IMG/VR virus record: IMGVR_UViG_3300030109_001381
Coordinates: 1-64,000 of that record
Reading direction: 5' to 3' (one strand)
Length of the DNA stretch: 64,000 nt
Source: a virus
Part shown: positions 14,201 through 64,000 of the stretch, piece after piece
How positions within the stretch are numbered: the stretch's first letter is position 1
How the letters are laid out: each line of letters starts with the position of its first letter
Translations under genes and position numbers: made by a program
The notes under the pieces: model-generated
Databases searched by the model: none
What the model saw: the letters and a program-made list of their open reading frames with translations, nothing else
What the model was told of the DNA's origin: nothing

Positions 14201-14285
14201 AGGAAACAGGCCATGCGCTACAATAAACACTCTATCTCCCGGCTATAGTGACATTTTATTCTATTATACATTTGGTGAGGTCTAA
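11268..14285 (+). CDS. Large adhesin-like tail protein with interrupted LamG-type domain and internal repeats
   Basis: About 1005 residues. A LamG/concanavalin-like fold appears split. The first half is near residues 120-235 (SIWASSSKDGGHDGSFAIEA...). The last half is at about 910-1005 (MKISLIYQKHGNVSLYLNNN; CRIGRGGDN; FGEVFEISMHRG). Between them is a Thr/Ser/Gly/Asn-rich beta region with an internal repeat marked by an Ala-Ile...Gly-His-Asn-Gly element, coded near 12950, 13320 and 13630. Such domains bind glycans or surfaces. ATG 11268 is preferred over the in-frame TTG 11265. It lies between the distal tail and hub genes, so it is probably a baseplate or tail-tip component. Confidence 0.55.
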   Translation: MVNAYVGESYKLVFPILSRGYLNIDFDAHTTGAVESTGVLVVGAVGSGSTKTLTVDTVDATTKFSVNDDVFDDTGALLGTIASLTATQIVLDENTQAALGDNENLKKHVIPTSESRKRSIWASSSKDGGHDGSFAIEAIITPYDVNGHGSIASGVHGVLDSTKTPPYPSDDYGNREANYHSVSILKETNYLTQKMMIFYNEKLKLYLQNTTLSSYNQPAEYKIVAEIKDSLGATHTFATDTVISASNTLHDYYDETAYYIKNTTNRKRVSASASGSSPQGTVTITSTSLPSNVGSVGQIVIGGSTPAHYVSPVAANCIFTIGTGNDIPRNTNPTYATGQVKVLQLINVGQGDSGQPRADDFLEVKKSDGTSYKFFQFIQNGSRTSGTSLAGTQDGQGTDYPVNSYMFLDINGVGLGAGNTTTAAASLVTALTAARSAGLDIAVPTSSGNTVTIVSAASTPTTHNNDAIALGGGNFVTANSGAYGVDGFGSGNGTGSMTSGVDVVEDNEFLTIVSTDGTSKKYRATSDPAHSTGDTLTDSGGNACVLYKLGANAGQTAVALKTAINGSSGHNGKITATSQSANRTVTMVQATVGAAGNKTNSRTSGITNTHVTIANFTGGITENLASSTPFITLVDNAGTAVTKKYVPVSNGDTLANGTTQTIGDVTGAVAFQVGANATATASNLETAIEHANGHNGSISASNSSGTLTLTQGTAGSNGNKTITLTNTSNITKTDFANGATPDSYIQLKDHAGVIRKYKAATTEANNSSDGTYVFFRNGADTTESATNLKNAINHSNGHGSSVIATSSNNVVTYKLNNPSLAQATISLVSLSSGIALSSPTFSTSTKEISVSSGETDEIGKGNKIYSATNVEIGTVDTVSGTTITLVNDPAVDVTSTIYTSQSKEAFYLEQPMKISLIYQKHGNVSLYLNNNLVKKSTHTIGAFTLDQSDCRIGRGGDNTSSGDDEQFFGEVFEISMHRGNRPCATINTLSPGYSDILFYYTFGEV

Positions 14286-21319: not shown

Positions 21320-21648
21320 TAGTAAATACAGGTAAAGACGATGTTGCGAGTAAAATTGCGGCGGCATATACAGTTGTGAAAGTGGGTAATGGTGGAGATG
21401 CTACGGCGGCTTCACAAGATGCCTTAGATGCATATGTAGCACAGAAGAGCGTTACTCCCTCAAGAATAGGTTCACACTTAGTTTGGACTGTAGATTTCCT
21501 TGGTTCTGAATTGGGAAATCATGGAGTTTCGGAATTAGGTGTTTTCGACACTTCCGATACCCTCTTGAGCCGAGTCACCTTCACAAACACAGGGATAGTG
21601 GCGAATGCTGACACACTAACTTTGACTATTAGAATAGAGGTGGCATGA
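21316..21648 (+). CDS. Small baseplate-type / fibre-attachment protein
   Basis: A 110-residue protein of a pattern common in phage tail regions. It begins with an INTG-like element (MIVNTGKDDVASKIAAAY). A V-x-VGNGGD-A-T segment and an ALDAYVAQK helix follow. Then come strands (LVWTVDFLG; GVSELGVFDT; LSRVTF) and a final strand TLTLTIRIEVA. Such proteins usually accompany fibres and may link them to the baseplate; the biochemical role is not established. It overlaps both neighbours by 4 bases (ATGA), tying it to the hub and giant fibre genes. Confidence 0.5.
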   Translation: MIVNTGKDDVASKIAAAYTVVKVGNGGDATAASQDALDAYVAQKSVTPSRIGSHLVWTVDFLGSELGNHGVSELGVFDTSDTLLSRVTFTNTGIVANADTLTLTIRIEVA

Positions 21649-24600: not shown

Positions 24601-27600
24601 AAGGTCTTCTAACTTTGAATACTAGGGATGGCAACACCATAACCGCAACATTACCTGACGCTACAACTGATGCTCACGGTCTAATGACTGACGACCAATT
24701 TGATAAACTGGCGGCGATAGAAGCCCAAGCAGATGTTACCGATAAAGCAAATGTGGTGGCTGCTCTTGGACTTCTTAATGAGAGCGACACTCTTTATCTT
24801 GGGGATGCTGGCAATGATACTACTGTTAGGGTCCGGGGTAACTTCTTCGTAGATGGGACTCTAACTACCATTAATCAAACAGAAATTAACGTTCAAGATG
24901 CTCTCGTCTTTGAAGGAGCAACTGGTGATGACCACGAAACTACTCTTCGCATTATAGACCCGACTGCTGACCGAGTAATTTCTCTTCCTGACATTACAGG
25001 CACAGTAGTTACAACCGGAGATTCGCAGACTATTGCTACTGGAATGATTGCTAACCTCGGTGTAACAACTGGTAAGATAAACAGTAATGCAGTCACTTCA
25101 GGAAAACTAGCAACAGATTCGGTAATTACTGCTAAAATAATAGATGATGCGGTTACTACTGCTAAAATTGTAGACGATGCGGTTACCATTGCTAAGATAG
25201 ATGGAATCACCGATGCAGGTAGTGGAGTAATAATTAGTGGCGCAGAGAGAACCAAACTGAGTGGCATAGCGGCAGGTGCGGAAGTAAACGTACAATCTGA
25301 TTGGAGTGCTTCTAGTGGTGACGCTAAGATTCTCAATAAGCCAAACGTGGAATACACATCTGCTATTCCGAATGCTACTTCTTCGCAAACTGGTCTAGTG
25401 ACTTCGACTCAGATAACTAAGTTAGATGCTATTGAAGCAAGTGCTGATGTTACTGATGCTACTAATGTCGCGGCGGCAGGAGCATTGATGGATGGTGACT
25501 TCACATCTAATGGTTTCTTGAAGAGGACTAGTGCAGGTAGTTATTCAGTAGACACCAACACATATCTAACTTCTCTATCAGTTACAGGGCTTTCAGATGT
25601 AGCGGCGTTTGAGACAAACTTCGCTGATGGTGTAAGTGCTAATGATGACTCACTAGCCTCTGCAAAATCAATCAAGGCATATGTAGATAGCGTAGGTGGT
25701 GCGGCTACAGGCTCTACTACATTCCAACTAGAAGACGGAGATGGAACAGAACTTACAATTGCTGATTCTAAGGAAATTAAGTTTGTACCTGCTTCAAGTC
25801 TTCTTACAATAAACTGGACAGATGTTGACAACGGTACGGATGCTGACCCATATGACCTGACATTCACCGTTAATCCTCTATTGTCAGCATACACAAATGA
25901 TTCAAACTTCACTACGACTACTGCATTAAATAACGCAACTGCGGCTACTGCGATAACTGGTAAGGCACTTACAAACCTTGGAACTGGAACTGGTGGAGCA
26001 ATAGCGGCAACAGATACTATCCTAGCCGCAATGCAGAAACTAGAAACTAGGACTGCACTCAATGATGCTAAGGTAACTAACACAGATGTTGACGTAACCG
26101 TTAGTAATCTAGAAGCAAGACTACCACAGATAGATACTGCTACCACAATCGGAAATGGAGTTGCTATTACAACTGGTGGTGATTTAACAGTCACAGGTGA
26201 CCTTGTTGTAAATGGAGCAACAACCACATTAGATGTCGCTACTCTTACAGTAGAAGATAAGAACATAGTATTGGGTTCTGGAAACTCAACTAGTGAAATA
26301 ATTGACGCTACAGGTATTACATTAGAAGGAGGAACTGGTGACGACATAACTTTCCAATGGCAAGCAAGTGACAATCAAATGGAAATGAAGTGGGGTAGTA
26401 ACTATGCCACTCTAAAGGCCGGGACATTTATCGGTGCATTAACTGGAAACGTTACAGGCAATGCTGATACTTCCACACTTGCTTCGACCGTAACAGTTGT
26501 AGATTCCACAGATACTTCATCATATGTTGCGTTGTTCGATAGTGCAACAGGTAGTCTAGCGGCTAAGACAGATGCGGGAATAACATATAACTCTGGAACT
26601 GGTATGTTAACTGCTACTGGATTTACAGGGCCATTAACAGGTAATGCTGCTACTGCTACAAAACTTGCCGCTACTAAGAATATAGCGGGTGTAGCATTCG
26701 ATGGTTCTGCTAATATCAATATTTCAATGACCAATCTTCACGATACAGATTTAGGTTCTTTATCTGATGGAGAGTTATTGATTTATGATAGTGTCAATGG
26801 TTGGAAGGACGCTACATTAACTGCTGGGGCTAATACTACAATTACAAATGGTGCTGGTTCTATTACCATTGCATCTGCTGATACAACTTATTCTGCTGGT
26901 CTAGGGATTGCTCTTGCTGGAACTACCTTCTCAGTAGCAAGTCCAACATCATTAACCAACATGACTGACGATGGAGGTGGTTCAACACTAACTGCCAACA
27001 CAGGTGATATTGTTATGGTATGGGATGCTGATGGTGGAGGAGGTTCAGGAACTTGGGTAAAGATGACTCTATCAGAACTATCGCAATTTGCAACAGATAA
27101 TGGTTCGGCTGGTGTCTTAAAGTTCTTCAAGCAAATTAATCTAACTGCCGCAACTGGTGGCAATGTTGTAAGTGGGGCAACTGATATTGTCGCAGATAGT
27201 GCTAATGACCCATTGGGAATTGTTGCGGGACCAGCAATAGACCTAACAGGAGACAATACATCTACGAATGCTTCACTAACAATAGGAGTCAATATTGATG
27301 CTCTCAATGAATTGGATGCAGCACCTCATACGACTCAAGATGAATTTATGGTTTCTGATAATGGAACCGAGAAAAGAGTATCTATGGCTAACGTTGCTGA
27401 TGGTGTTTTCGCTCATGTAAGTGGAGATGCAACAATTGCGGCAGGTGGGGCTTTGACAATTGCCGCTAATAGCGTAGCACTAGGAACTGACACTACTGGA
27501 AACTACATGACTGATGTTTCTGCCGGGACGGGAATAGATGTTACTCATACTGCGGCGGAAGGGTCAACTGCTACTATTGCAGTAGACGTATCTGACTTTA

Positions 27601-30600
27601 TGAGTGGTGGTGCAAATAACCGTGTTCTTACCGCCGCAGGTACAGACACATTCCAAGGAGAAGCAAACTTACTTTATGATGGCGATGCTTTAGTTGCTCT
27701 TGGTGCTACTAATGATAAGGATGTTTTATGGGTAGGAAATACTGCTGGTAATAGTGGTTCAACTGCTGGTATCACACATCTTGGTATATCTCATTGGGGT
27801 TCAGGCACATACCCATCCACTAGAATAACTGCAAGAGAGGATTCAGCAGGGAGTTATCTTGGTTCTTTGTCATTCTCCACAAGAGGTGCAGCAAGTGATT
27901 CTGCGGCTACTGAGAGAATGAGAATCGCTTCTGATGGTAAAGTCGTAATAGGTGCAACTACTGCTGATGAACTTCTTCATGTAAGTGGTGCGGCGGCAGG
28001 GGATAGCGTTTCCTTGAAGGTCACAAATACTGACGATACAGATGACGCTTCGGTTGCCTCTCTTCATCTTGAAAGTCAAAGAGGAACAGATAGTAATTTC
28101 TACCTTGAGCATGATGCCTATGGTGCAACTAAATTCTATACTGGACAGGCAGCAAAGAATCATGCTTTGACTATGAATGCAAATGGTTCTACAACAGTTG
28201 AAGCGGCATTAATAGGAGATTCAACTGCTTCATTTACTGGCTCTCTTACAATGAACCATGCAGGTTCAGATATATATGCTGATATTATCGGCCCAAACAA
28301 CAGAAACCTAAGATTCGTTCTACGAGACAATGGAGATACGGATTCCTTCCTCTTTAGAAACGCGGCTGGAACAGACATAATGTCCTTAGCAAGAACAGGA
28401 GATTTAACTGTCACAGGTGCAAATAGAAATGTAGCCATTTCCGATGGTAAAATTACTCTAGGTGGGGCTTTAGATGTAGACTTTGATGGTTCACATACAC
28501 GCATAACTCATGATGCGGCTACAGATTCCTCGATGATATTCAAGAATGCTGATGGTGCAACCATACAGTTCAATATGGGTAGTGACAAGGGTATTGAGGT
28601 AAACAAGGATGGCAATGTAGAATTGTATTATGACAATTCTAAGAAGTTTGAAACTACTTCTGCTGGCGTAGCAATAACAGGAGACTTATCTGTATCAGGA
28701 ACAACTACTACCGTAAATACAGTAACGATGGAAGCGGCTAATGCGATAGTGTTTGAAGGAGCAACTGCTGATTCCCATGAAACCACATTATCTATTGTAG
28801 ACCCGACTTCTGACCATACTCAGTATCTAATCAATCAAGGTGGATATATTCCAGTATTAGCCGCCGCAACTACAACTGCTATTACTTCTACACCTGCTGA
28901 ACTGAATGTATTAGATGGATATACTGGTAGTGTTACTGAGTTAAACTATCTTGATACTTTACACGCAACAGGTGTGACTGCTACTGAGTTTGATTATCTA
29001 GATGGTGTAACTTCTAACATACAAACTCAATTAAATACAGTTTCATCTGCAACTGGAGATGGACTTTCCTATGATGGTTCAACTGCTAACGGTGTATTGA
29101 CATACAAAGATGCAGATGAGATTTCTGTAGAATCTACATTGACATATGACCCAAGTGGTATGTTGAAGATTGACGTTGGCGGATTTGCTAGAATGGAACT
29201 TCATGGTGATAATGGCGCATACATAGACATGAGCAATCACGATGGAACTAATGATGACTTCGATGCTAGACTCATTACAACTGGTAGTGGATTAGACATA
29301 ACTACTGCGGGTAGTTCTTCACCAATTACTCTGAAAACTAATGGTGGTAGTAGGGTAAAGATAGAGGATGCCGCCGTTACAGTCTATCCATCAATTCTTC
29401 AATTTTCCACAACAGGTGCGCCTACGATAAAAGGCGGAAACCATAATCCGATAACGATTTACGGTAATGCAGATGGAACTGCTACTTCAACAACCAATAA
29501 CATAGTCTCACGCTCAACGGCGGCAGCAATAGACTTCGATGTGAATGCAAGCCAGCAATTGGCTATGAGGGTACAAGACAACAAGGATGTAAACGTCTAT
29601 GGTGTTCTAAATGGACCGGGAGTAGCAGAAGGCGGCTATGGTGCTAACTCGTTCCATCTTGGTGATACTGGAAGTACGGAGGGTAATGATTGGTATGAGG
29701 TATTCCGATGGACTCCTAACAACACGATGAGCGCAACAAACTCAAACCAATACAAGAACTTCGCCGCGAGATTCCAAGTTGTCGGAAGGGGTATTCAAAG
29801 AATAAACTTCGATATGTATGTGCGTGGTGAGTATGGGATTCAAGGCGACTCAGGTTGGTGGACAAAGGAATTCGTCATAGATGGTCTTGCCCAAAGCACA
29901 GACGGAGGTGGTATTGCTTCGCCTGATGGAGACTCTATCTTCAAGATGGTCTATAACTCCGGCACAAGTTTGAGTATGCCCTTTGCAAGTTTGTATATGA
30001 GAAGGGATGAAAATTGGGAGATAAGAACCTGCAACCTAATATCCATGTTCACCAATTGCGTCTTTGAGTTCAAGGACACCAATGCCGGAGAAACAACCCC
30101 AACGAATGACGGACAAAGCGACTCTCACGATTTGTCTCCTACAATCAGAAAGAAACTGAGAGTTGATGTGAATAATCAATTAATCAACGGTATGGTCGAG
30201 TCAGGAATTTACCTAGATGATGCTGACCAAGAGTTAGTTATCAAGACCGCTACTGACCCCCTAATTAGAGCATGGGATACGACTGACAATTATGCCGCTA
30301 CGCTACAGGCCGCTTCAAGTGGTGCTTGGTTAGGACTAGGAGACATGGATTCTTCTGATACTACATGGATGAAGTTTGGTGCATTTAGCGGCATTAACAA
30401 CCTTGACACCAAAACAAGGGACTTCCACATATACGGGACAAACACCGCAACAGGATTCTATTTCGATGAGTCGGCAGGGAAGTTTGGAATAGGCACTACA
30501 AGCCCTGTAACTCTGTTAGATGTAGCAGGTAGTATCACCGTAGCAGACCACATTATTCATAGTGGTGACACAAACAATATGATTAGTTTCACAACGGATA

Positions 30601-31022
30601 CTCAGACTTTCACTACTGCGGGTTCTGCTAGGATGACCATTGCTTCCGGTGGTGATGTTACAGTAGCAGGTGCATTCTCTGCGGCTACCAAGTCTTTCGA
30701 CATAGAACATCCAACAGAAGAAGGAAAGAGATTGCATCACGGTTCTCTTGAGGGACCGGAACACGGTGTCTACATCAGAGGTAGATTAGAGGGAGATACA
30801 ATAGAACTACCCGACTACTGGCTAGGTCTAGTTGATGAGGATACAATCACGGTTCAACTAACACCTAACAAGGGATTCCAACAGATATACGTTGACCACA
30901 TAGAGGACAACAAGGTGTATGTGGGAACACAGACTGATACTCCAATAGACTGCTTCTACTTCATACAGGCAGAGAGAAAGGACGTTGACAAAATGGAGGT
31001 AGAGTATGACGTTGTGGTTTGA
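21645..31022 (+). CDS. Giant tail fibre protein (3125 residues)
   Basis: A very long, repetitive, Ala/Thr/Ser/Asp/Asn-rich fibre. Repeated units include AIPNATSSQTGL-x-T-x-TQITKLD (coded near 22260 and 25370), NAVTTAKI/DDAVT-type heptads (near 23160 and 25090), a FEGAT-x-D-x-HETTL unit (24910, 28750) and TELNYLD/YLDGVTS units (24190, 28930). These resemble trimeric phage fibre shafts. The C-terminal 110 residues carry a head conserved in marine cyanophage fibres: KSFDIEHPTEEGKRL, LEGPEHGVYIRG, then YWLGLV and VQLTP strands. No peptidase S74 chaperone domain is visible. The role is host-surface recognition. The gene ends inside the next one (31006). Confidence 0.8.
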   Translation: MMTNSNPGFLSTLSTTPNTRIVDGTDNIHSGIINALNVGLADNRVISGFDIDQSDGGSYTTYGVDAGKIIRDGILVSISAVSLTTTAAARAGNDWYAVIVVDSANTTKIRTGASSSSTAKVSALTAGDIPVAIVKYLAGSDNDAINRKVQFLGYAQTARGLSILNSGSETVRINAAGTITKGGATLTLPSSTGTIALTSDIQYQSAIPNATSSQTGLATQTQITKLDGIEANATADQTKSDINTLYSWSSDPESGATADQTDAEIETAYNARVAQVSSAERTAGNSTTIKRFTPADIKSMIDQHETDTNTDTDVSIANLKSRLNSDFGGDFSIGTQSDDTASFAGHLVVGGNLTISGSTTTINTETVSLQDNIIMLNSNSANTPSENAGLEVERGNSTNVLLRWNEGTDRWEFTNDGANYHNIITQAEADAGKYTHPNYATTNLDTSNAEVVSEIQTNATGHITAMTKRTMTLGHLGFTGATDANKYVHPNHSGDVTSSADGATTIANNAVTTAKIADDAITSAKINDGEIVNAHINGSAAIAQSKISGLTSALSGKEPSLTISDGLDRTGATIKVDIDGLTIENGMDRSADFIMYDDATNGLRRINPANLFSKIIASDIPDISSTYRAVATKLVNADVSNSAAISADKIADGSTNKVFTSTLKTKLDGIAASATAGADWSSNVSNISVTNAQLAGSIANAKLANSAVTINGSAVNLGGSLTLTSGDLSENTNLYYTDERVDDRVNALITDGEGITTTYDDSAGTLTIAGEDATTSNKGIAKFDTDDFTISSGNVMIKSAGVSNSQLQGAIAQSKITNLVSNLAAKVESLSDLSITASAAEINILDGVSGVSATEIGYLDGVTSSIQTQLNSKLSSVSVSDLTGIGSLDTALNSVSASHDTLASAKSIKDYVDSKASVQLEYTMEVEGTDDTNTHLLKIIDQNTNFSDVNFSGSLGISIGVNEGSDTLTFSSNAWPKNILSSSFNQGLLTLNTRDGNTITATLPDATTDAHGLMTDDQFDKLAAIEAQADVTDKANVVAALGLLNESDTLYLGDAGNDTTVRVRGNFFVDGTLTTINQTEINVQDALVFEGATGDDHETTLRIIDPTADRVISLPDITGTVVTTGDSQTIATGMIANLGVTTGKINSNAVTSGKLATDSVITAKIIDDAVTTAKIVDDAVTIAKIDGITDAGSGVIISGAERTKLSGIAAGAEVNVQSDWSASSGDAKILNKPNVEYTSAIPNATSSQTGLVTSTQITKLDAIEASADVTDATNVAAAGALMDGDFTSNGFLKRTSAGSYSVDTNTYLTSLSVTGLSDVAAFETNFADGVSANDDSLASAKSIKAYVDSVGGAATGSTTFQLEDGDGTELTIADSKEIKFVPASSLLTINWTDVDNGTDADPYDLTFTVNPLLSAYTNDSNFTTTTALNNATAATAITGKALTNLGTGTGGAIAATDTILAAMQKLETRTALNDAKVTNTDVDVTVSNLEARLPQIDTATTIGNGVAITTGGDLTVTGDLVVNGATTTLDVATLTVEDKNIVLGSGNSTSEIIDATGITLEGGTGDDITFQWQASDNQMEMKWGSNYATLKAGTFIGALTGNVTGNADTSTLASTVTVVDSTDTSSYVALFDSATGSLAAKTDAGITYNSGTGMLTATGFTGPLTGNAATATKLAATKNIAGVAFDGSANINISMTNLHDTDLGSLSDGELLIYDSVNGWKDATLTAGANTTITNGAGSITIASADTTYSAGLGIALAGTTFSVASPTSLTNMTDDGGGSTLTANTGDIVMVWDADGGGGSGTWVKMTLSELSQFATDNGSAGVLKFFKQINLTAATGGNVVSGATDIVADSANDPLGIVAGPAIDLTGDNTSTNASLTIGVNIDALNELDAAPHTTQDEFMVSDNGTEKRVSMANVADGVFAHVSGDATIAAGGALTIAANSVALGTDTTGNYMTDVSAGTGIDVTHTAAEGSTATIAVDVSDFMSGGANNRVLTAAGTDTFQGEANLLYDGDALVALGATNDKDVLWVGNTAGNSGSTAGITHLGISHWGSGTYPSTRITAREDSAGSYLGSLSFSTRGAASDSAATERMRIASDGKVVIGATTADELLHVSGAAAGDSVSLKVTNTDDTDDASVASLHLESQRGTDSNFYLEHDAYGATKFYTGQAAKNHALTMNANGSTTVEAALIGDSTASFTGSLTMNHAGSDIYADIIGPNNRNLRFVLRDNGDTDSFLFRNAAGTDIMSLARTGDLTVTGANRNVAISDGKITLGGALDVDFDGSHTRITHDAATDSSMIFKNADGATIQFNMGSDKGIEVNKDGNVELYYDNSKKFETTSAGVAITGDLSVSGTTTTVNTVTMEAANAIVFEGATADSHETTLSIVDPTSDHTQYLINQGGYIPVLAAATTTAITSTPAELNVLDGYTGSVTELNYLDTLHATGVTATEFDYLDGVTSNIQTQLNTVSSATGDGLSYDGSTANGVLTYKDADEISVESTLTYDPSGMLKIDVGGFARMELHGDNGAYIDMSNHDGTNDDFDARLITTGSGLDITTAGSSSPITLKTNGGSRVKIEDAAVTVYPSILQFSTTGAPTIKGGNHNPITIYGNADGTATSTTNNIVSRSTAAAIDFDVNASQQLAMRVQDNKDVNVYGVLNGPGVAEGGYGANSFHLGDTGSTEGNDWYEVFRWTPNNTMSATNSNQYKNFAARFQVVGRGIQRINFDMYVRGEYGIQGDSGWWTKEFVIDGLAQSTDGGGIASPDGDSIFKMVYNSGTSLSMPFASLYMRRDENWEIRTCNLISMFTNCVFEFKDTNAGETTPTNDGQSDSHDLSPTIRKKLRVDVNNQLINGMVESGIYLDDADQELVIKTATDPLIRAWDTTDNYAATLQAASSGAWLGLGDMDSSDTTWMKFGAFSGINNLDTKTRDFHIYGTNTATGFYFDESAGKFGIGTTSPVTLLDVAGSITVADHIIHSGDTNNMISFTTDTQTFTTAGSARMTIASGGDVTVAGAFSAATKSFDIEHPTEEGKRLHHGSLEGPEHGVYIRGRLEGDTIELPDYWLGLVDEDTITVQLTPNKGFQQIYVDHIEDNKVYVGTQTDTPIDCFYFIQAERKDVDKMEVEYDVVV

Positions 31023-43229: not shown

Positions 43230-44104
43230 ATGTCAAACCACCCTGCATTATCTGCGGCATCACATATGGAGTAATAACTACAATACGCTGGACAAGTCCT
43301 TTCGTTATACTCCGGTTCCCATGTTTCCTCTTCATATGCTTTCAATAACTCTACTACATTTTTTAGCATACCAGTCATTGAAACCTTCTTTACTTTCTCA
43401 TAAACGAACACATCATTCTTCGGGAAATACCATGCCCAATGGGTAATTTCTTTATCAGGGTCCAACCCTAGTTTTACCTTATCTTCCCTTGATGTGTTAT
43501 CAAACAACCATTTGTAGAAAGCCATTTCCTTTCTCATACTAGTTGCTTTGTGTTTTCCCCACTTTCCTGTTTTGAATTCGACAGGAACATATCCTTGCTC
43601 CTCCTCAAACATCCTATCAATGATTCCTTGCAAATGAATTGTATGGTCATAACGAAGAGGCAGGTGAGACTCATCTCTCCTGATGACAACTTCGGCATCC
43701 AATGTCGCTTCATTTATTACAGGTAAAAATGAATCTAGAGTTCCTTCACTTCTAGAATCAATAAAACGGTTGGTTTCCCAAGCCGCCATAGTGTGATAGA
43801 AATCAGTATAATCATCAATTGGGAATAGGCTCAAGGCATAGTCTTGTATTTCCAAGGGAGACATAGTTTCTGCTTTCTTAACATCAAAGTCATTATACCA
43901 ATCCTCATATGCATTGTGCATGATACTACCTGCCATCATTGCTTCAGAAGTATCTTGAGGCAATTTCTGTAGATAGTTAAAATCATATTGTTTTGGACAC
44001 CACTTGAAAGAACCAATCAAAGATGATTTGGTTATTTTCAATATAGGTAAATCCTCATTGGCAGTTGCTTGTTTTGCGTCATAATTGTATGTGTATTCTC
44101 TCAT
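43226..44104 (-). CDS. Cas4/RecB-like PD-(D/E)XK nuclease with Fe-S cluster
   Basis: A 292-residue nuclease. The core motif is GIIDRMF (D163) followed by PVEFKTGK (E176, K178). H63 in the GSIMHNAYE segment matches the conserved His of the RecB/Cas4 family. Four Cys, C36 (KWCPKQY) and C271, C275, C281 near the end, are placed as in the Cas4/AddB 4Fe-4S cluster. It should resect DNA ends, feeding the Sak4-like ATPase or genome processing. No CRISPR genes are near; free-standing Cas4-like genes are common in archaeal viruses. Confidence 0.8.
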   Translation of the reverse strand: MREYTYNYDAKQATANEDLPILKITKSSLIGSFKWCPKQYDFNYLQKLPQDTSEAMMAGSIMHNAYEDWYNDFDVKKAETMSPLEIQDYALSLFPIDDYTDFYHTMAAWETNRFIDSRSEGTLDSFLPVINEATLDAEVVIRRDESHLPLRYDHTIHLQGIIDRMFEEEQGYVPVEFKTGKWGKHKATSMRKEMAFYKWLFDNTSREDKVKLGLDPDKEITHWAWYFPKNDVFVYEKVKKVSMTGMLKNVVELLKAYEEETWEPEYNERTCPAYCSYYSICDAADNAGWFDI

Positions 44105-44211
44105 TTTCTATCTCTCCTATTTTCTTCCATATTCCTGTGATATCTTTCCCATGTCATTCCTTCATCAAATGTTACCCATGCCCATAATTTCTTCAGGAAC
44201 TTTAGAACCAT
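44101..44211 (-). CDS. 36-residue basic/aromatic peptide
   Basis: A microgene between the PolB C-terminal part and the Cas4-like nuclease. The start is inside the PolB end (ATG 44211) and the stop overlaps the nuclease start (ATGA). The peptide is rich in Lys, Arg, Trp and Met (KFLKKLWAWVTFDEG; ENRRDRK). No family is recognised; it could bind a replisome partner. Confidence 0.45.
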   Translation of the reverse strand: MVLKFLKKLWAWVTFDEGMTWERYHRNMEENRRDRK

Positions 44212-45101
44212 TCTGTCAATTCCCCCTGTCTTCTATCCTTGGATACTTGTTTCATGTCCCATCCCATTGCAGTAAATATTGGTTCTGCTTTGTTAAGAAC
44301 TGATAAGGCATAATGTAGATAGTCGGGATTAAACCCATCTATCTCTTCTAACTTCCTAAATGAAATATAATTAGGAACAGTTGCTACTTGATTTATTGGA
44401 TGATGGTATGTGCAATTACATCTAATTATCTTCAAAAACATATAGGAATCATCAATTGGGTTATGAGGATTTAATGAATTATAGAATAACACTCCCTCTA
44501 TCCCCGCACCTACTGAAGGTCTTTTATTTGCACTAGTCCAAAAAGACGGTGAGTTACAACAAGTATTGGCGGCCATAGTGAGATTGTGCAGGGATTTCTT
44601 ATGTTGCCAACCGTTCTTTTTGCAATTGGAACAATACACCGTAAATCTCTCTTCACGATATCTAGTCCTCTTAGTTAAATCTCCAAGAGGAATCTCACCC
44701 GATAAGACTTCATTGTATTTCTCCCTAAGATAGTCTGCTATGTCACTTTCACTTTGCTCGTTAACCCACATTTTCAATACCGTGAGTTGAACATCCTTAG
44801 CCAACTTAGTTTCTGATATCCTCTTGGCGGTAAATCCGGTCATTACGAACTTTTCTTCGTCAAGGTATTCTCCATCTATCCAAGATATCATACCAGCATT
44901 TCTATTCTTAACAGACCCAACACCTAGAGTCCGGTAAAACTTCTCAAACTCCAAAGTCACCGGATGGTTTTTCAGATTGAAAACATTAGGAAAATGTTCT
45001 CTCACTTTATCGTTCAAGGTGTCTACTATCTTCATAGCATGTTCGGGAGAATCAACCCCAACATACAAGGAATCTGTATGTCCATATTTTATATCAGTCA
45101 C
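44202..45101 (-). CDS. polB2: DNA polymerase B, C-terminal part (motif C and thumb)
   Basis: A 299-residue protein that begins MTDIKYGHTDSLYVG, that is, only 5 residues before motif C. Motif C reads YGHTDS instead of YGDTDS: the Asp of TD (D10) is kept, the first Asp is His. The palm end and thumb follow (KRISETKLAKDVQ). A Cys-rich insert (CSNCKK...CC) lies in the thumb region, and the C-terminus is a PIP box, QGELTEWF (292-299), for PCNA binding. GTG 45101 has GGAGG about 7 bases upstream, so it is a real start. It must combine with the 45632-47329 product to form an active polymerase. Confidence 0.85.
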   Translation of the reverse strand: MTDIKYGHTDSLYVGVDSPEHAMKIVDTLNDKVREHFPNVFNLKNHPVTLEFEKFYRTLGVGSVKNRNAGMISWIDGEYLDEEKFVMTGFTAKRISETKLAKDVQLTVLKMWVNEQSESDIADYLREKYNEVLSGEIPLGDLTKRTRYREERFTVYCSNCKKNGWQHKKSLHNLTMAANTCCNSPSFWTSANKRPSVGAGIEGVLFYNSLNPHNPIDDSYMFLKIIRCNCTYHHPINQVATVPNYISFRKLEEIDGFNPDYLHYALSVLNKAEPIFTAMGWDMKQVSKDRRQGELTEWF

Positions 45102-45199
45102 TCCTCTTCCTCCAATCTTCTTGCTCTTAGTTCAGCCTCTACTATCATATCCAATCTATATTCTGCATCTAATTCTTCATCTCTAAAACTCTTAGTCAT
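45098..45199 (-). CDS. 33-residue acidic helical peptide inside the polB locus
   Basis: A microgene between the two PolB parts. Its ATG overlaps the upstream stop (ATGA at 45199) and its stop overlaps the GTG of the PolB C-terminal part (GTGA at 45101). The peptide (SFRDEELDAEYRL... RRLEEEE) is a single highly charged helix. No family is recognised. Its end supplies the GGAGGAAGAGGA ribosome binding site of the next gene. Confidence 0.5.
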   Translation of the reverse strand: MTKSFRDEELDAEYRLDMIVEAELRARRLEEEE

Positions 45200-45429
45200 T
45201 CTTCTCTCTCCTTGTAATGGTCATGTTCTTTGGGCAATTTATGTTGCCTTCTGTTCATCATGTTCTGAAGATACTGGCAGATGTTTTCTGCTCCCTTCTT
45301 GAATCGCTTCTCAGCAACCTTGTCTCCTTCCGGTATCATCTCAACCATTAGGCCATCTAACCATGCCTTTCTTCCTATCCAATCTAATATTTCATATTCT
45401 ACATGTGTCACGCTTCTTGCTCTTCTCAT
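45196..45429 (-). CDS. Unknown 77-residue protein inside the polB locus
   Basis: A helical, basic protein (RRARSVTHVEYEILDWIGRK... RRQHKLPKEHDHYKEREE) without Cys pairs or membrane segments. ATG 45429 overlaps the upstream zinc-ribbon gene's stop and its own stop overlaps the next microgene. It is one of three genes separating the two PolB parts. No family is recognised; it may help the two halves associate, or it may be unrelated cargo. Confidence 0.5.
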   Translation of the reverse strand: MRRARSVTHVEYEILDWIGRKAWLDGLMVEMIPEGDKVAEKRFKKGAENICQYLQNMMNRRQHKLPKEHDHYKEREE

Positions 45430-45635
45430 TCTTCATCATCTCCATACAATGCCCAATCTCTTCTAATTCCCCACTTCTTCAAGTCCGCTCTAGTCCAAGG
45501 TCTTCTCATCTTGATTACATCATCAACCAATTGATAGATACAAGTTGGACATACTGGACCGGACGGTGTGCTTTGTAGGGTTATTACTCCCTTTCTATCA
45601 TTACCACCTACTCTATTGCAGACTACACACTTCAT
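45426..45635 (-). CDS. Zinc-ribbon protein inside the polB locus
   Basis: A 69-residue protein with CVVC (3-6) and CPTC (29-32) forming a zinc ribbon, followed by a basic, Trp-rich helical part (RRPWTRADLKKWGIRRDWAL). It starts within the stop of the PolB N-terminal part (ATGA at 45635). This may be a homolog of the short ribbon/helix proteins often tied to HNH or recombination genes, but no nuclease motif is present. It is the first of the three genes between the PolB parts. Confidence 0.55.
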   Translation of the reverse strand: MKCVVCNRVGGNDRKGVITLQSTPSGPVCPTCIYQLVDDVIKMRRPWTRADLKKWGIRRDWALYGDDEE

Positions 45636-47329
45636 AATTTTCTCACCTCTCTTGCGGCTATTCTAATTGCCTCTCTAGCACTAGCCGTAATACTTGCGGC
45701 AATATCTAAGTCAGACCAAGAAAAGCCTTGATATGCGGTGATGCCATAAAAGGATGCCATCAATCGCTTAACTGCTAATTGGTTGTTATTCCAAATAACA
45801 TAATTATCCGGGTCACTTCGCATTCGTGATTTATACTCTTCACGAAGTTCTTGAAGTTCTAATACTGACTTAGGCAATAAGCCTAATTTATCAGTTCGAT
45901 AATATCTCATATCTTTTTCATCAGACTCAGAAAAGTCCTTGGGTTCCAGAAGATTACACCCAAGTTCAGTTGGGGTATCTGATTTTGTTTCCCAAGATAT
46001 GTTTCTTGAGATTATCATAGATGGGTATAGCGATTTGAAATCCAATGCCGCTACGTTCCTATGTAGGCCATTAGTCGATTCGCTAAGAGGGTCATAGACC
46101 ATTGCCCCATCATACCGTCCCTTCTCCTTCTTGACAGTCGTTGGAGCCTTCCAAGGGGCATTTCTCATGAAGTATATTCCTCCCATGTTACTAGCGTAGT
46201 AGCAAGCATCATGTGGTGCAACAAGCAAACGTTGCAATGCTAAGATAGCCTCCGTTAGATGGTTCTTCTCATCTATCCTAACGAGAAGTTCTACGTCAAT
46301 CCTAGCGTACTCTAGATATGTAGCAGAATCCTCTAACCAAGCCCTAGCAAAGAACTCATTCTTATCGGGGAACTTCTCACTAACTAGTTTCTTCTCTCCC
46401 AATACAGACTCAGCAACATAGTCTAATGCCAATGAAGGCAAAGTCCCTTGTTGTGAATCATTCCATTGTCTCTCAAAAGCCAACTCCAAAGGAACGGTAA
46501 TCATTCCCTTAACTGGTTGATAAGTAGGTGACCAATTATCCACTTGCTTGTTGTAGACCTTGACCTTCTCCTTATGCCATGATACCCCCGACACCTCATC
46601 GAAAGGAGAAATCAGTCTAGGGTCTAGATTATACTTAGCCATACGATGAATTAACTTAGGTAGGTCGAACTTCCAACCGAACCAAGAGATAAGCATGTCG
46701 GGTTCCTTATTCATCAGATACGATAGGAATCCAGCAAGCATAGTTTTCTCACTTGAATAGACATTAATATCGTAATCACACAAAGAAGGTTTTACAATTT
46801 CATCATACTTATCTTTTGGATACCAAGCAAACATCTTGTAGGTCTTATCGAATGAATCGTATGCTACTATTGTAGTTATCATCTCCTTGAAACTACCTGT
46901 TGTCATCCACTCCATATCCCAATAGCATTTCCTCATTTCATATATTGGCAATTGATTAAGACAATCTACTGCATATCTATGATGGTGTGGAACTCTACCT
47001 TCATAACTTTCAATGTTCAATAACTCCAAGTATTGTTTAATGTCCATAGAATACCTTGGATGATTAGGTGTCCATATTAACTTGGACAAATCTTCTCCTT
47101 CCAGATTCTTGAAGTCACCTGTCTCAAACTTCATCTCAATCTTGAATGAACCACCTTTATCCCTACTTGTGATAGTAGTTTTATTGGTGCTTTCTAATGC
47201 AAGTTTATCTTTGGTTCTGATAAACATGTATGGTCTAAACTCACGATAACCTATGATTTGAGAAATAGACTTACCATCATCATCTCTATACCTCAATCCT
47301 ACTCCATCTTTCACTTTACTAATTATCAT
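45632..47329 (-). CDS. polB1: DNA polymerase B, N-terminal part (exonuclease, palm motifs A and B)
   Basis: A 565-residue protein: N-terminal domain, 3'-5' exonuclease domain with ExoI D138-M-E140, an ExoII remnant with FDLP (D222; the usual Asn is absent) and ExoIII Y341 to D345, then polymerase motif A DFKSLYPS (D430) and motif B K521-RLMASFYG. It stops after the helix IAAREVRKL, about where the linker to motif C should begin. Motif C is encoded separately at 44202-45101. The stop (TGA) overlaps the next ATG, so this is a true gene end unless the frame is broken by a sequence error. It is the replicative polymerase of the virus. Confidence 0.85.
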   Translation of the reverse strand: MIISKVKDGVGLRYRDDDGKSISQIIGYREFRPYMFIRTKDKLALESTNKTTITSRDKGGSFKIEMKFETGDFKNLEGEDLSKLIWTPNHPRYSMDIKQYLELLNIESYEGRVPHHHRYAVDCLNQLPIYEMRKCYWDMEWMTTGSFKEMITTIVAYDSFDKTYKMFAWYPKDKYDEIVKPSLCDYDINVYSSEKTMLAGFLSYLMNKEPDMLISWFGWKFDLPKLIHRMAKYNLDPRLISPFDEVSGVSWHKEKVKVYNKQVDNWSPTYQPVKGMITVPLELAFERQWNDSQQGTLPSLALDYVAESVLGEKKLVSEKFPDKNEFFARAWLEDSATYLEYARIDVELLVRIDEKNHLTEAILALQRLLVAPHDACYYASNMGGIYFMRNAPWKAPTTVKKEKGRYDGAMVYDPLSESTNGLHRNVAALDFKSLYPSMIISRNISWETKSDTPTELGCNLLEPKDFSESDEKDMRYYRTDKLGLLPKSVLELQELREEYKSRMRSDPDNYVIWNNNQLAVKRLMASFYGITAYQGFSWSDLDIAASITASAREAIRIAAREVRKL

Positions 47330-47333
47330 TATA

Positions 47334-48098
47334 TCACCTATTCAAGTACGGGGCTTTCAACAGTAGTCTAGTCGGAGTCTTCCAAAACAATGGGAAGTCA
47401 TCTCTAAGGTAGAGTTCTACAGGCCCATTAAGAAACTGAGCAAACTGTCCGGTAAACTCTACCGTACTAGACTCACCCTCTATAGCAATAGTTTCGATAT
47501 CAGTATGATACTTGTCTGCTATACCCCTATCACTACTCATAGCAAATACCTGTTCATTCACATCGAACTTGTATCTTGCTAAGTTCAATGCATCACAACC
47601 CTTAGTAGCCTTTAGCAAATCGTCAGCCAAAGCAATTACCTTAGTCTCAAACGCAGTCTTATTGAATACTGGTAGTTCTTCGTTCGCAAACCTATCTGCA
47701 TTATCAGATAGGAAATTCCTAAAATGGTCAATCATTGCCATACCGGGATGATTCAACACCTTTGGAAGATTGGCCTTTGTATTGCCATCTTCTTCAGATA
47801 TAGCAATGTAGTCACCTACGTTTATGGTAACTTCACCGCTAAATCCCTGTAGGTATTTTACTGTTCTATCTATCTCCAATACCACATGACCATCAAACAC
47901 TTCTTCGACTCTATGCTTGATGGCACATACAGTCACTTGGTCTGCATTGAATACTAGCAGGTTATCTCCATTGAATGTAACATATGCATAATTCGATAGC
48001 ATACCATTCTTCGCAGAATCACCATTGTAGTATTTACCCTTCAGGGCAACTGCTTCCAACATTTCACTAAACTTTTTCTTCTCTATTTTTATTTCCAT
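47334..48098 (-). CDS. pcn: PCNA-like sliding clamp
   Basis: A 254-residue clamp. The two-domain strand pattern fits PCNA, and the C-terminus carries the clamp ending PVELYLRDDFPLFWKTP followed by a final strand LLLKAPYL, close to the archaeal PCNA consensus. It encircles DNA and tethers PolB, ligase and others. Two proteins of this genome end in PIP boxes (PolB C-terminal part and the RFC-L-like protein), the expected partners. ATG 48098 with GGTGA upstream is preferred; a GTG at 48107 is possible. It lies directly upstream of the PolB N-terminal part. Confidence 0.8.
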   Translation of the reverse strand: MEIKIEKKKFSEMLEAVALKGKYYNGDSAKNGMLSNYAYVTFNGDNLLVFNADQVTVCAIKHRVEEVFDGHVVLEIDRTVKYLQGFSGEVTINVGDYIAISEEDGNTKANLPKVLNHPGMAMIDHFRNFLSDNADRFANEELPVFNKTAFETKVIALADDLLKATKGCDALNLARYKFDVNEQVFAMSSDRGIADKYHTDIETIAIEGESSTVEFTGQFAQFLNGPVELYLRDDFPLFWKTPTRLLLKAPYLNR

Positions 48099-48501
48099 TT
48101 CTTTCACCTATTTTGATAAATCCGTAATAGCCTTCCGGCTTTACGGGTAGCCCCATATACAGGGCATAATGTTCTTCCGAACAAAAACTCCGTGGCCCTA
48201 CGGCCAAATCCTCTACTACGAAGACGGAAGGTTTGTCATCACAAGCCGCACATATTTCATGTGCAAACTCATTATGCTCTTTTACTTCCTTCCGTCTTCG
48301 CTTTATGTAATCCTTAAACTGCTCATCAGTTGATATCGTTCCGTCCTCAATTCCTTGTTCAAACTCAGCAATGAAATCAGGTTCTTCAAACTCCCCCTTC
48401 TTTCCTTTCTTTGCTTGTTCTTGTAACCACATCTTCTTAGCATATCTTCTGTCTTGTGGATTGGTATATTGACTAAGATACCTTTCCATCTCCTCGCTCA
48501 T
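48067..48501 (-). CDS. Unknown protein with zinc knuckle
   Basis: A 144-residue protein: a basic, helical N-terminal half (about 1-75) and a zinc knuckle at about 83-110 (ICAACDDK and FCSEEHYALY, i.e. CxxC plus C...H). It is followed by a short strand and a charged tail overlapping the PCNA start. ATG 48501 overlaps the upstream stop (ATGA). No family is recognised. Its place between the Sak4-like and PCNA genes suggests an accessory of replication or recombination. Confidence 0.55.
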   Translation of the reverse strand: MSEEMERYLSQYTNPQDRRYAKKMWLQEQAKKGKKGEFEEPDFIAEFEQGIEDGTISTDEQFKDYIKRRRKEVKEHNEFAHEICAACDDKPSVFVVEDLAVGPRSFCSEEHYALYMGLPVKPEGYYGFIKIGERNGNKNREEKV

Positions 48502-51512: not shown

Positions 51513-52417
51513 ACCATTTGCCCTACCATCCAAGAAGCCAATACCTTTGGAGTCATATTATTGCTCCTCCACTCGGCTTCTCCGACAATACGAAGCAGTT
51601 TGAATTTATTGTTGCTTTCCATTTCACTTCTTAGGATAACATCATGCAAATTTCGACATACCGTCCTCATGTCTGTAGATTTGTGAATCAAATTATGAAC
51701 CCCTTCTAGTGCATTAGTATGTTTATTTTCGGCAATCAATTGTAATATTTGGGTGTAAGGCTCAAGGTTGTTGTCTATCAGATTAACTAGACTTCTCCCA
51801 CTAGAAACCGATGCCTGTATTTCGGTTATGCCTCTACGCAAATCACCTCGGAGGTAACTTATGAACATATCTAATTCCTCTTCGGGAACCACTCGTTGCT
51901 CATTTTCAAGGATAGTTGACAGTACCGTTTTCATAATATCATCACTAATCTTCTCAAAGAAATAGAGCGCACACCTAGATTGCAATGGAGCGATAATCTT
52001 CCATACATCATTAGCAGTAATGATGAATCTGCAATTATCTGCATATCTCTCCATGATTCTCTTGAGGGCATTCTGCGCATCTTTAGTCATGCCGTCCATC
52101 TCATCAAGAAGTATAATCTTGAAAGGAACGTTACCTATCTTGCTCGTTGAAGCAATCTCCTTGATTCGGGTTCTGACTGTCTCCAACTTCCTGTCGTCCG
52201 ATGCATTGATTTCAAAGAAGTTATTCTCAACCTCATCACCAAGTATATCATTTGCAAGAGCCATAGCACTAGCAGTCTTACCTACACCTGCTACACCACC
52301 TAACATGACGTTAGGCATATTACCACTCTTTACCCATGACAAAGCATCAATGGTAAACTTCGGTTGACCAACAACATCATTGATACTCTTGGGTCTATAT
52401 TTTTCTGTCCACAACAT
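51509..52417 (-). CDS. rfcS: Clamp loader small subunit (RFC-S)
   Basis: A 302-residue AAA+ clamp loader. It has the N-terminal WTEKYRPKSINDVVGQ signature (3-18), Walker A GVAGVGKT (41-48), Walker B LLDEMDGM (103-110), sensor 1 ITAND (133-137) and the SRC motif (147-149), then helical domain II/III. It opens and loads the PCNA-like clamp with ATP. It is close to cellular archaeal RFC-S in motif content and slightly shorter than the usual 315-330 residues. An atypical large-subunit candidate is encoded at 52868-53710. Confidence 0.92.
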   Translation of the reverse strand: MLWTEKYRPKSINDVVGQPKFTIDALSWVKSGNMPNVMLGGVAGVGKTASAMALANDILGDEVENNFFEINASDDRKLETVRTRIKEIASTSKIGNVPFKIILLDEMDGMTKDAQNALKRIMERYADNCRFIITANDVWKIIAPLQSRCALYFFEKISDDIMKTVLSTILENEQRVVPEEELDMFISYLRGDLRRGITEIQASVSSGRSLVNLIDNNLEPYTQILQLIAENKHTNALEGVHNLIHKSTDMRTVCRNLHDVILRSEMESNNKFKLLRIVGEAEWRSNNMTPKVLASWMVGQMV

Positions 52418-52599
52418 TATTCCTCATCTCCTATTACTCTTTCAATGTAAACACAAGCATCCATCAGTTCTTCCTGTAGATGTTTCATCCATTGAATAAA
52501 GGACAAATCCTTTCTTTCCATAGTAGTCCCATATTTGTTTAGACCTACTTGCGCTCTTTCTTGTATCTTCTCACATACCTTATCTTCTATCTTACTCAT
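52417..52599 (-). CDS. Small MazG-like (all-alpha NTP pyrophosphatase-type) protein
   Basis: A 60-residue helical protein: ERAQVGLNKYGTTMERKDL then WMKHLQEELMDACVYIE. The KYG...R...WxxHxQEELxDAxxY arrangement is the phage version of the short MazG-like/dUTPase-related all-alpha fold, with the Glu-Glu...Asp metal ligands in LQEELMDA. Related enzymes hydrolyse noncanonical or excess NTPs. At only 60 residues it may be a minimal or non-catalytic version. It overlaps the RFC-S start. Confidence 0.55.
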   Translation of the reverse strand: MSKIEDKVCEKIQERAQVGLNKYGTTMERKDLSFIQWMKHLQEELMDACVYIERVIGDEE

Positions 52600-56087: not shown

Positions 56088-56298
56088 TCACTTCCATTTT
56101 CTCTATTTTTTGTAGTGCCTTAATCAATATAGGCAACTCTTCTCTATTTATCCTCAACCCTTTCCTCGTAGGCTTTCCATCGGAATACCATCTCATATCA
56201 ATAACAGGAATCTTCCAATATGTTCCTGTGTTGATTTGACATTCCAATGTTGCATTTCTTGCTATTCTTGCTATCGTTTTCCAATCTTGTTCTCCCAT
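56050..56298 (-). CDS. PC4-like single-stranded DNA-binding protein
   Basis: An 82-residue protein. The segment IPVIDMRWYSDGKPTRKGLR followed by INREELPILIKALQKI has the PC4 (p15) C-terminal domain pattern: V-D-I-R-x-W/Y, a D-G-K-x-x-P-T-x-K-G-I/L element and a closing helix with regularly spaced Leu. PC4-like proteins bind ssDNA and, in archaea and phages, help transcription or replication. Together with the TFB at 59898 this suggests control of transcription. ATG 56298 overlaps a microgene stop (TAATG) and GAGGAGG lies upstream. Confidence 0.6.
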   Translation of the reverse strand: MGEQDWKTIARIARNATLECQINTGTYWKIPVIDMRWYSDGKPTRKGLRINREELPILIKALQKIEKMEVNENDNDEISENV

Positions 56299-56393
56299 TA
56301 TTCTTCCTCCTCTAGTTGTTTTTGTAACTGTTTCGTATTCACCTTGCTATTCAATCGGGTATGTAGCGTCCAATACAAATCTGCATTAATCAT
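56298..56393 (-). CDS. 31-residue helical peptide
   Basis: A microgene starting inside the stop of the upstream zinc-knuckle gene (ATG 56393, overlap GATGATTAA). It ends in Gln/Lys/Glu-rich sequence (TKQLQKQLEEEE) whose codons double as the GAGGAGG ribosome binding site of the PC4-like gene. The stop overlaps the next start. Probably real because it fills the gap in the correct phase; function unknown. Confidence 0.4.
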   Translation of the reverse strand: MINADLYWTLHTRLNSKVNTKQLQKQLEEEE

Positions 56394-56781
56394 CCAATCC
56401 ACCTTTGAATTGCAAGTATGCTTTCATTGATTTGAAGTAGCGTGGAGACTCAAACTTGTCAAGTCTATTTGCTATCCAAACTACGCCCCCTAAACTACTG
56501 ACTCTAATAATCTCATATTGTTTACCATCTATGTCTAACATATCCACAGGGTCTACGTCCGGCACAAGACCATATCGTTTAGTTAAATCCATAGCAATGT
56601 CATTGATATTCTCAGCAACATATTGCACTATCAAGTCTCGTTGAATAGGAACCTTAGCATCTACTTCAACACTTATCTTACCTGTCATCTCACAGACATG
56701 GCACTTGTTGCCCTCACAAATAGGACAAGTAAGTGCGGCAGGTAATGGGGCCGGAAACCTAACAGTTACTACCTTCTTCAT
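56386..56781 (-). CDS. Unknown protein with zinc knuckle
   Basis: A 131-residue protein from ATG 56781, overlapping the lipoprotein stop (ATGA). A CPIC pair and then CHVC lie near residues 19-30 (CPICEGNKCHVC), followed by strands (ISVEVDAKVP) and an alpha/beta domain with QYEIIRVSSLGGVVWIANRL. The spacing C-x2-C-x4-C-x2-C is a CCHC-like or DnaJ-type zinc element. No family is recognised. Confidence 0.55.
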   Translation of the reverse strand: MKKVVTVRFPAPLPAALTCPICEGNKCHVCEMTGKISVEVDAKVPIQRDLIVQYVAENINDIAMDLTKRYGLVPDVDPVDMLDIDGKQYEIIRVSSLGGVVWIANRLDKFESPRYFKSMKAYLQFKGGLDD

Positions 56782-62435: not shown

Positions 62436-64000
62436 TCAAAGTATCTCGCAGGTTCCACCACTACAGGCAATCTCGCCTTGTAGGTCGGTTTGGTCTGTTT
62501 CTTCCTTGACTTTGTAAAGATGAACTTTAGAGAGAACCTCTCTCATCTTCTCAAAGCGATACTTGGTTATGTCTTCAAAGACTAATTGTGGATGTGAACC
62601 ACCGAAGTAGGGAATCACAGTAATGCCATTGTAGGAATCACGATTCTTCCACATCCATTCTCCTACTTCTTTCCACTCGTCATCCTTGACGCTAACTGTA
62701 GCCGAGACATTATGCATGTTGTTACCATCAATATGTCCGGGTGCTATCCAATTCCAAAAGAAGTGTTTGATTCTCTCTAACAAGTCTAACGCAGATTCAT
62801 CCAATCTAGTTATTGCTCCCTTTGGTGCTTTCTGAGGAACGCATAGTAGAGATATGTTTGCTTCTGTTAGAGACTTCTCCATTAGAGTAGGGAACTTCTT
62901 CACTAAGTAATTGTGAATTGGTTCGTTCACTCCCACTTGAATGCGCCTGATGTAGTAGTCATTATGCCATGCGTGAATACCGGAAGATGTTCCTAGAACA
63001 CAACTAGTAGTTCCTTCGGGTTTGATACAAGTAAGCCTAGCGGCATAGTTCATCTTTCTATCGCTCTTATCATTGATAGTATCAACAGTCTCCACATTGA
63101 CATCAATGACACAGTTAGTAGCCTCTTCCAAGTCCAACTTAGCAAGAGCGTTACTACCAATGCCAGTTAGAGAAACACCGAGCAATGCATCTTTCTCACA
63201 GTTCTCTCTCCAAATCTCCCTAAGATAATGGAAGTCTGTGTATGCGGCTTGCAATGTTCCCAAGAATGAAGCGGCTGATACTCTAGCATTCAAGTCCTCT
63301 TGCGATGTAACTGTAGAAGCATTGACGGAGCAAAGATTACACATCTGAAATGGCCTAAGCGAAATTTCTGCACAAGGATTTGTTCCCCAATCTTTGTCAT
63401 TAGTTAGAAAGAATCCGGGTTCTCCGGTCTTGTTCAATTCAATCCTCTTCCATACATCCATGAAGAATTCCTTCTTGAGTTTGTGACGTAGCAATACAAC
63501 CGAGTTATTTGCTCTCCCTCGATAAGGGTGCTTCTCATACCAAAGACCACTCTTGGACATTAGCATCTCCTCGTCATCTGCACTAAACAGACTAATCATA
63601 GCCGCTCTTCTTATGCCACCTGCCAATACAGAATCAGCAATATGACAAAGCATATCGTGAACCTCGATAGGTTTCATCTGATGGCCATCCGGCATATTCT
63701 TCAGCATCTTATGAACCAAATCAAGACACTTATCCAAAGGGTCGGGACCGGGTGCAGTTCCACCTGTTGTCTTCAACGGAGAACCTAGTGGCCTTATCTC
63801 CGTGAAGTCAAACTTAGGTGTAGTAGTTCTAACACCTGTATAAGAATCGAATAGGACTCTAATTGCTTCTGCCCATCCCTTTATCGAATCCTCAATCAAA
63901 TAGCGATAAGTCCTACTCGATGGTTGCCTTATCACAGGTAGTTGATTGACATGATGATATTGGACGGAATAACCGACACCTGTTCCACCTAGCAGTAGGA
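62436..64000 (-). CDS. nrdJ: Class II (adenosylcobalamin-dependent) ribonucleotide reductase, partial
   Basis: At least 521 residues; the frame is open to the window edge, where it continues with LLGGTGVGYSVQYHH, a signature of the class II triphosphate-reductase type. Core motifs: NPCAEISLRPFQMCNLC (radical-site Cys with Glu, and the second active-site Cys), LLGVSLTGIGSNAL, and the C-terminal redox pair C-x4-C in ACSGGTCEIL. It makes dNTPs for viral replication using vitamin B12, common in marine viruses. The usual length is 700-780 residues, so roughly the N-terminal third is missing beyond 64000. No intein is visible in the part seen. Confidence 0.93.
   Translation of the reverse strand, partial: LLLGGTGVGYSVQYHHVNQLPVIRQPSSRTYRYLIEDSIKGWAEAIRVLFDSYTGVRTTTPKFDFTEIRPLGSPLKTTGGTAPGPDPLDKCLDLVHKMLKNMPDGHQMKPIEVHDMLCHIADSVLAGGIRRAAMISLFSADDEEMLMSKSGLWYEKHPYRGRANNSVVLLRHKLKKEFFMDVWKRIELNKTGEPGFFLTNDKDWGTNPCAEISLRPFQMCNLCSVNASTVTSQEDLNARVSAASFLGTLQAAYTDFHYLREIWRENCEKDALLGVSLTGIGSNALAKLDLEEATNCVIDVNVETVDTINDKSDRKMNYAARLTCIKPEGTTSCVLGTSSGIHAWHNDYYIRRIQVGVNEPIHNYLVKKFPTLMEKSLTEANISLLCVPQKAPKGAITRLDESALDLLERIKHFFWNWIAPGHIDGNNMHNVSATVSVKDDEWKEVGEWMWKNRDSYNGITVIPYFGGSHPQLVFEDITKYRFEKMREVLSKVHLYKVKEETDQTDLQGEIACSGGTCEIL

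Follow-up and report, generated by a model that had tools for sequence, protein, structure and literature searches.

Replicative polymerases divided between two genes are known among viruses but are rare. In the Aeromonas T4-like phages 25 and 44RR, the viral family B DNA polymerase (PolB) consists of two chains, whose genes are separated by a seg nuclease gene or by an untranslated spacer; the halves of the split gp43 of phage 25, 43A and 43B, co-purify and are active (PMC2988022). Archaeal family B polymerases encoded by two genes are also found in cells, namely PolB3 of the Methanobacteriales, whose split has been explained by the loss of an intein, and the PolB of Nanoarchaeum equitans, whose halves can be rejoined by a split intein (PMC4104785). 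The closest described system is that of the magroviruses (Aoguangviridae), tailed viruses of marine archaea. The ICTV profile of this family labels a PolB-NTD and a PolB-CTD (Poseidoniales virus YSH_150918), and lists a replication cluster with both PolB parts, RFC, primase, ligase, nucleases and TFB (PMC10768690). The two-gene layout of PolB is thus already on record for magroviruses; in the profile, however, the parts are named in a figure legend only, without the cut site, the genes at the junction or the sequence of motif C (PMC10768690).

Haloviruses and magroviruses are both placed in the B5 group of PolBs (PMC7544198), and the nearest sequenced viral relatives of the polymerase described here are those of the haloviruses HVTV-1, HGTV-1, HATV-2 and VOLN27B. 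Unlike the split enzyme with YGHTDS as its motif C that we describe, these are single ORFs of 861-960 aa with DTDS in motif C; the PolB of cyanophage P-HM2 is also a single ORF with DTDS. As in our case, the first Asp of YGDTDS is substituted in crenarchaeal PolB2 (Dpo2), but that protein is a damage-tolerance enzyme without an exonuclease (PMC7390963), whereas the exonuclease residues are invariant here.

The window analyzed here, i.e., the whole stretch of 64,000 nucleotides, comprises positions 1-64000 of a 67,842-bp IMG/VR record (IMGVR_UViG_3300030109_001381), which is a linear genome fragment. This record has two opposed gene blocks with tail and virion PHROG matches, and encodes an RFC-like AAA protein, a DNA ligase, a TFB-type zinc ribbon, ERCC4 and PD-(D/E)XK nucleases, and a primase, as in the magrovirus cluster. 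The Magrovirales criterion is opposed replication and virion blocks in a genome of 90-110 kb; the record spans 67.8 kb, and its long relatives 77-101 kb. The virion block contains ORFs of 2344 aa (14285-21319) and 3125 aa (21645-31022), presumably tail proteins. Near the window edge, a 499-aa ORF (62436-63935) has a partial match to a ribonucleotide reductase barrel together with a B12-dependent insertion domain, and this stretch may encode another divided or divergent enzyme.

Within the replication cluster of this magrovirus-like record, PolB is encoded by two genes, both on the minus strand. The N part (45632..47329, 565 aa) includes the N-terminal domain, the exonuclease, motif A, motif B and the fingers, as identified from Pfam matches (DNA_pol_B positions 37-200, and exo1), a 12-member alignment and PDB profile matches. 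The C part (44202..45101, 299 aa) starts with GTG, five residues upstream of YGHTDS, and includes motif C (45069..45086), the rest of the palm and the thumb; it matches DNA_pol_B positions 226-365. Between the two, also on the minus strand, lie a 69-aa, zinc-ribbon-like ORF with two CxxC motifs (45426..45635; junction family F4), a 77-aa ORF (45196..45429; family F7) and a 33-aa ORF (45098..45199; family F23, present in the window and in one close relative, L031, only), whose 3' end carries the sequence GGAGG ahead of the start of the C part. The four gene boundaries across the split are 4-nt overlaps, three of them ATGA and one GTGA. The ORFs, their coordinates and lengths, and the overlaps are all as the original prediction had described them. 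Neither the 69-aa nor the 77-aa ORF matches a significant Pfam or PHROG family. On the minus strand, the N part is adjoined by a putative sliding clamp (PCNA; 47334..48107), which has no Pfam match and is assigned by its position and the ICTV gene list, and beyond the C part lies a 36-aa ORF (44101..44211).

The two genes together encode a complete polymerase. In PDB profile searches against yeast Pol delta (3iay), the N part aligns to residues 309-677 and the C part to residues 692-822; thus, no segment of PolB has been lost at the cut, which falls after motif B and before the hairpin of motif C. In the 12-member alignment of the N part, the exonuclease residues D138, E140, D222 and D345, Asp430 of motif A (codon 46040-46042) and motif B are invariant, and the patterns Dxx(S/G)LYPS (motif A) and KxxxxSxYG (motif B) are found in 108 of 108 relatives. 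In the 11-member alignment of the C part, YGHTDS, KNRNAG and the C-terminal L.EWF are likewise invariant. The C part ends in a PIP-box-like peptide, QGELTEWF (44205..44228, minus strand), and the corresponding pattern, QxxLxx followed by two aromatics, is seen in 86 of the 97 relatives with a C part ending in an aromatic pair. The N part is about 24-25% identical to the PolBs of T4-like cyanophages; that is, it is not of the gp43 type and does not indicate membership of the T4-like group. Although motif C reads YGHTDS instead of the YGDTDS typical of family B, with the first Asp replaced by His and the second retained, both the profile and the fold matches assign the enzyme to this family.

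In the RB69 polymerase, where the role of D623 has been considered, the metals are bound by the Asp of motif A and the second Asp of motif C (PMC3564110). By this correspondence, the metal ligands of the polymerase described here reside on separate chains, and therefore a single chain should not polymerize. As YGHTDS is not the canonical motif, the enzyme might differ in its activity or in its use of metals. AlphaFold models of the chains, computed singly from shallow alignments, show low confidence in the palm pieces (N part, residues 379-489 and 525-565; C part, residues 1-16 and 36-96), whereas the exonuclease and the thumb are modeled with better confidence; the model of the C part matches known PolB structures. 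This pattern is compatible with a palm formed only by the two chains together, but the shallow alignments could also explain it. For both parts, pN/pS relative to one relative (L002) is about 0.2, with synonymous sites near saturation; this low value would favor a bipartite PolB.

To place the split in a wider context, viral contigs were scanned, yielding 148 distinct loci with both parts, of which a first set comprised 109. These relatives were gathered by similarity to this PolB family, and magrovirus clades outside it may differ. All 148 loci have the cut in the identical place, encode PolB in two genes rather than in the continuous polypeptide that is usual, although not universal, in family B, and carry YGHTDS. 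The N parts end 0-17 residues past a common REL end, and the C parts begin at or near (M)KVVYG (MKVVYGHTDS), or at VTDIKYG. None of the 148 loci has a fused polB, and no fused gene was found when an intact relative was sought with a fused query and in a search of deep clades. Thus, the split is not accidental but maintained, as had been predicted from the single sequence, and the unusual motif C noted at that time is a property of the whole sampled group. An assembly error as the source of the split is ruled out by the 148 distinct loci, L031 included. Because the cut is common to the entire sampled group, we conclude that it is old. While the phage 25 and 44RR splits concern a few phages of another lineage, this one is found throughout a large group, and holds a changing, multi-gene slot.

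The split enzyme appears to be the only PolB available. Another complete PolB elsewhere in the genome would have spoken against the original prediction, and none was found in the 67.8-kb record, a fragment whose missing part could hold another. A single polymerase is present in 15 of 16 long relatives, so if these viruses use one, it must be the split enzyme. In the sixteenth (IMGVR_UViG_3300021958_000021; 184,733 bp; L218/L245), about 91 kb separate two split PolBs, and this contig gives the impression of an assembly product in which two magrovirus-like genomes were joined. In searches of genome contigs, the N part gave no match, and the C part gave one magrovirus-like contig, also split (L230, NZMJ01000151.1). 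This contig, filed under a GTDB genome titled Maricaulis sp. (MAG), has the split PolB, clamp, primase and ERCC4 in the same order, and is probably misbinned.

In contrast to the constancy of the cut, the contents of the junction change among relatives. The spacer between N and C parts ranges from -4 to 1582 nt in the 109 loci and reaches 1948 nt in the larger set, and it holds from 0 to about 8 ORFs. These ORFs form 62 families across the 109 loci, 24 of which are singletons, and most have no known family. The family of the 69-aa ORF, F4, occurs in 21 of 109 junctions, deep branches included, and often directly after the N part; that of the 77-aa ORF, F7, occurs in 14 of 109. Four genomes (L007, L034, L071 and L078) have no insert at all, with only ATGA or TAATG at the junction. 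In a tree rooted on the long-branch haloviruses, these genomes occupy three positions, surrounded for the most part by genomes with inserts. The original prediction, that unrelated genes lie between the halves, thus stands for the window, but not as a fixed arrangement, as relatives hold other genes or none. Where genes are inserted, 81 of 108 loci have an overlap, of either 4 nt or 1 nt, between the first of them and the stop codon of the N part; a sequence resembling a ribosome-binding site precedes 61 of 108 C starts, as compared with 17% at random positions.

Could the two frames nevertheless yield one full-length polymerase, by intron splicing, protein trans-splicing, frameshifting or ribosome bypassing? 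In the genomes without an insert the frames abut within 4 nt, as such a mechanism would permit. However, elsewhere the spacer extends to about 1.9 kb and its gene content is unrelated, every gene begins and ends with codons of its own, with stops in frame, and no intron RNA family scores above threshold. The only RNA match, a chance-level fluoride riboswitch inside the C gene, is below threshold and was rejected as evidence of an intron. Given these separate starts and stops, and a spacer whose content can vary freely, the intein, intron and frameshift readings fail, and we regard a full-length product as extremely improbable.

A separate question is how the split originated. It could be what is left of an intein, or of the insertion of a homing endonuclease, in the vicinity of motif C, with the junction genes as descendants or followers of that element. 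The position of the cut, a few residues before motif C and close to the classic intein site of PolB, suggests such an origin, as do the intein loss proposed for the Methanobacteriales, the seg gene within the phage 25 split, and the nuclease genes found in some junctions, i.e., an HNH gene in L193/L200 (L193:3450-4052) and a T5orf172/MUG113 gene of the GIY-YIG type in L176 (L176:898-1482), both candidate free-standing homing endonucleases. The methanogen enzymes are, however, cellular, whereas ours belongs to a viral, B5-like group, and the likeness concerns the two-gene layout. Nor did we find the remnant that had been suggested from the window: the junctions examined have no match to intein families, and the ends of the parts have neither intein halves nor Cys, Ser or Thr splice points, in which this PolB differs from that of N. 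equitans. Nuclease genes, moreover, are rare and scattered (L193/L200, L176 and perhaps L219), and thus look like late arrivals. We consider an intein or homing origin to be plausible, but less likely than not. It concerns the origin of the split, and is compatible with a bipartite PolB as its present function.

Alternatively, the junction proteins, above all F4 and F7, might be subunits that bridge or stabilize the two polymerase chains. The recurrence of F4 in deep branches and directly after the N part is consistent with this idea, as are the tight coupling of the genes and the small subunits of Sulfolobus PolB1 (PMC5418573). On the other hand, about 80% of junctions are without F4, four genomes have nothing at the junction, and viruses whose PolBs are nearly identical have different contents, no family being universal. 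In one of the empty-junction genomes, L078, F7 resides kilobases upstream of the N end. A subunit role thus seems quite unlikely.

The distribution of the inserted genes instead points to mobile cargo. In other relatives, members of F7, F9, F10, F14, F17, F26 and F32 are also encoded at a distance of a few kb or less from the polymerase, and the window carries homologues of F18 and F26 outside the junction (56298-56402 and 52417-52599), which indicates that small genes move between slots. Similarly, the 36-aa ORF beyond the C part has homologues within the junction in L027, L038 and L104; that is, cargo moves around the C part. The median spacer is 438 nt between N and C parts, 5 nt between clamp and N part, 105 nt between C part and PDDEXK nuclease, and 352 nt between the nuclease and the primase; as the last is also variable, these genomes have several cargo slots, of which the N-C junction is one. 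Other contents include a DUF2061 gene in L172 and, in L077, a 114-aa ORF (L077:5410-5754; Viral_Rep PF02407, E 4e-17) that corresponds to the endonuclease domain of Rep proteins from small circular DNA viruses and has no helicase part.

In three pairs of close relatives, exchange is confined to the slot. Over 13.7 kb, the window shares 99.06% identity with L031; yet 58 of the 93 differences within 43500-48300 cluster in a 290-bp tract (45120..45409, not assigned to a strand) covering the 77-aa and 33-aa genes, with about 99% identity on either side. Judged from the sequences, this tract is an allele replacement inside the junction. L171 and L174 have N parts with 99.4% and C parts with 100% identical DNA, and differ by one whole inserted gene; the HNH gene of L193/L200 is absent from L218. 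In L040, the N half and the junction are about 99% identical to L036/L039, whereas the C half resembles L067/L069 (95-96% at the amino-acid level), and the affinity switches at the start of the C gene; from these alignments, L040 would be either a half-polymerase recombinant or a metagenomic assembly chimera. A second apparent half-swap, L214/L218, was rejected, as its switch point is internal to the N gene, and 100% identity to the 184-kb contig with two copies suggests an assembly chimera. Whether the conserved cut is itself a recombination seam under selection, reassorting polymerase halves and carrying cargo in the coding unit, is a bolder proposition that we consider unlikely. If it were true, L040 would be a natural half-polymerase recombinant, and the YGHTDS seen in every relative would be the sign of an active site that has adapted to being assembled from two chains.

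Taken together, we favor, with a probability of about 0.88, a bipartite replicative PolB that would assemble in trans, and whose internal gene boundary would serve as a slot for recombination and gene gain. The virus would be a magrovirus-like tailed virus of marine archaea, with the split PolB as its replicative polymerase. Chain N would supply the exonuclease, the fingers and the motif A aspartate, and chain C the thumb, the remainder of the palm, the motif C aspartate, and a tail predicted to dock on the clamp; with the two metal-binding aspartates on different chains, neither would be expected to be active alone. The active halves of phage 25 gp43 offer a precedent, by analogy, for such a two-chain enzyme. 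Both genes belong to one overlapping array, and would probably be co-translated through coupling at the 4-nt overlaps. Recombination between the conserved half-genes would allow the slot to gain, lose and exchange small accessory genes, including those for homing-type nucleases, and the three junction genes of the window would be cargo, probably dispensable for polymerase activity.

The literature searched, which excludes key magrovirus papers, contains neither a mention of YGHTDS nor a description of a hypervariable PolB junction. What emerges is a large and widespread group of marine viruses that keeps one cut through the catalytic palm of its polymerase, a cut that doubles as a parking place for genes. 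This group offers a natural setting in which to study how an essential enzyme tolerates being split, whether a gene boundary within an enzyme can serve as a recombination seam, and what role the first aspartate in YGDTDS plays.
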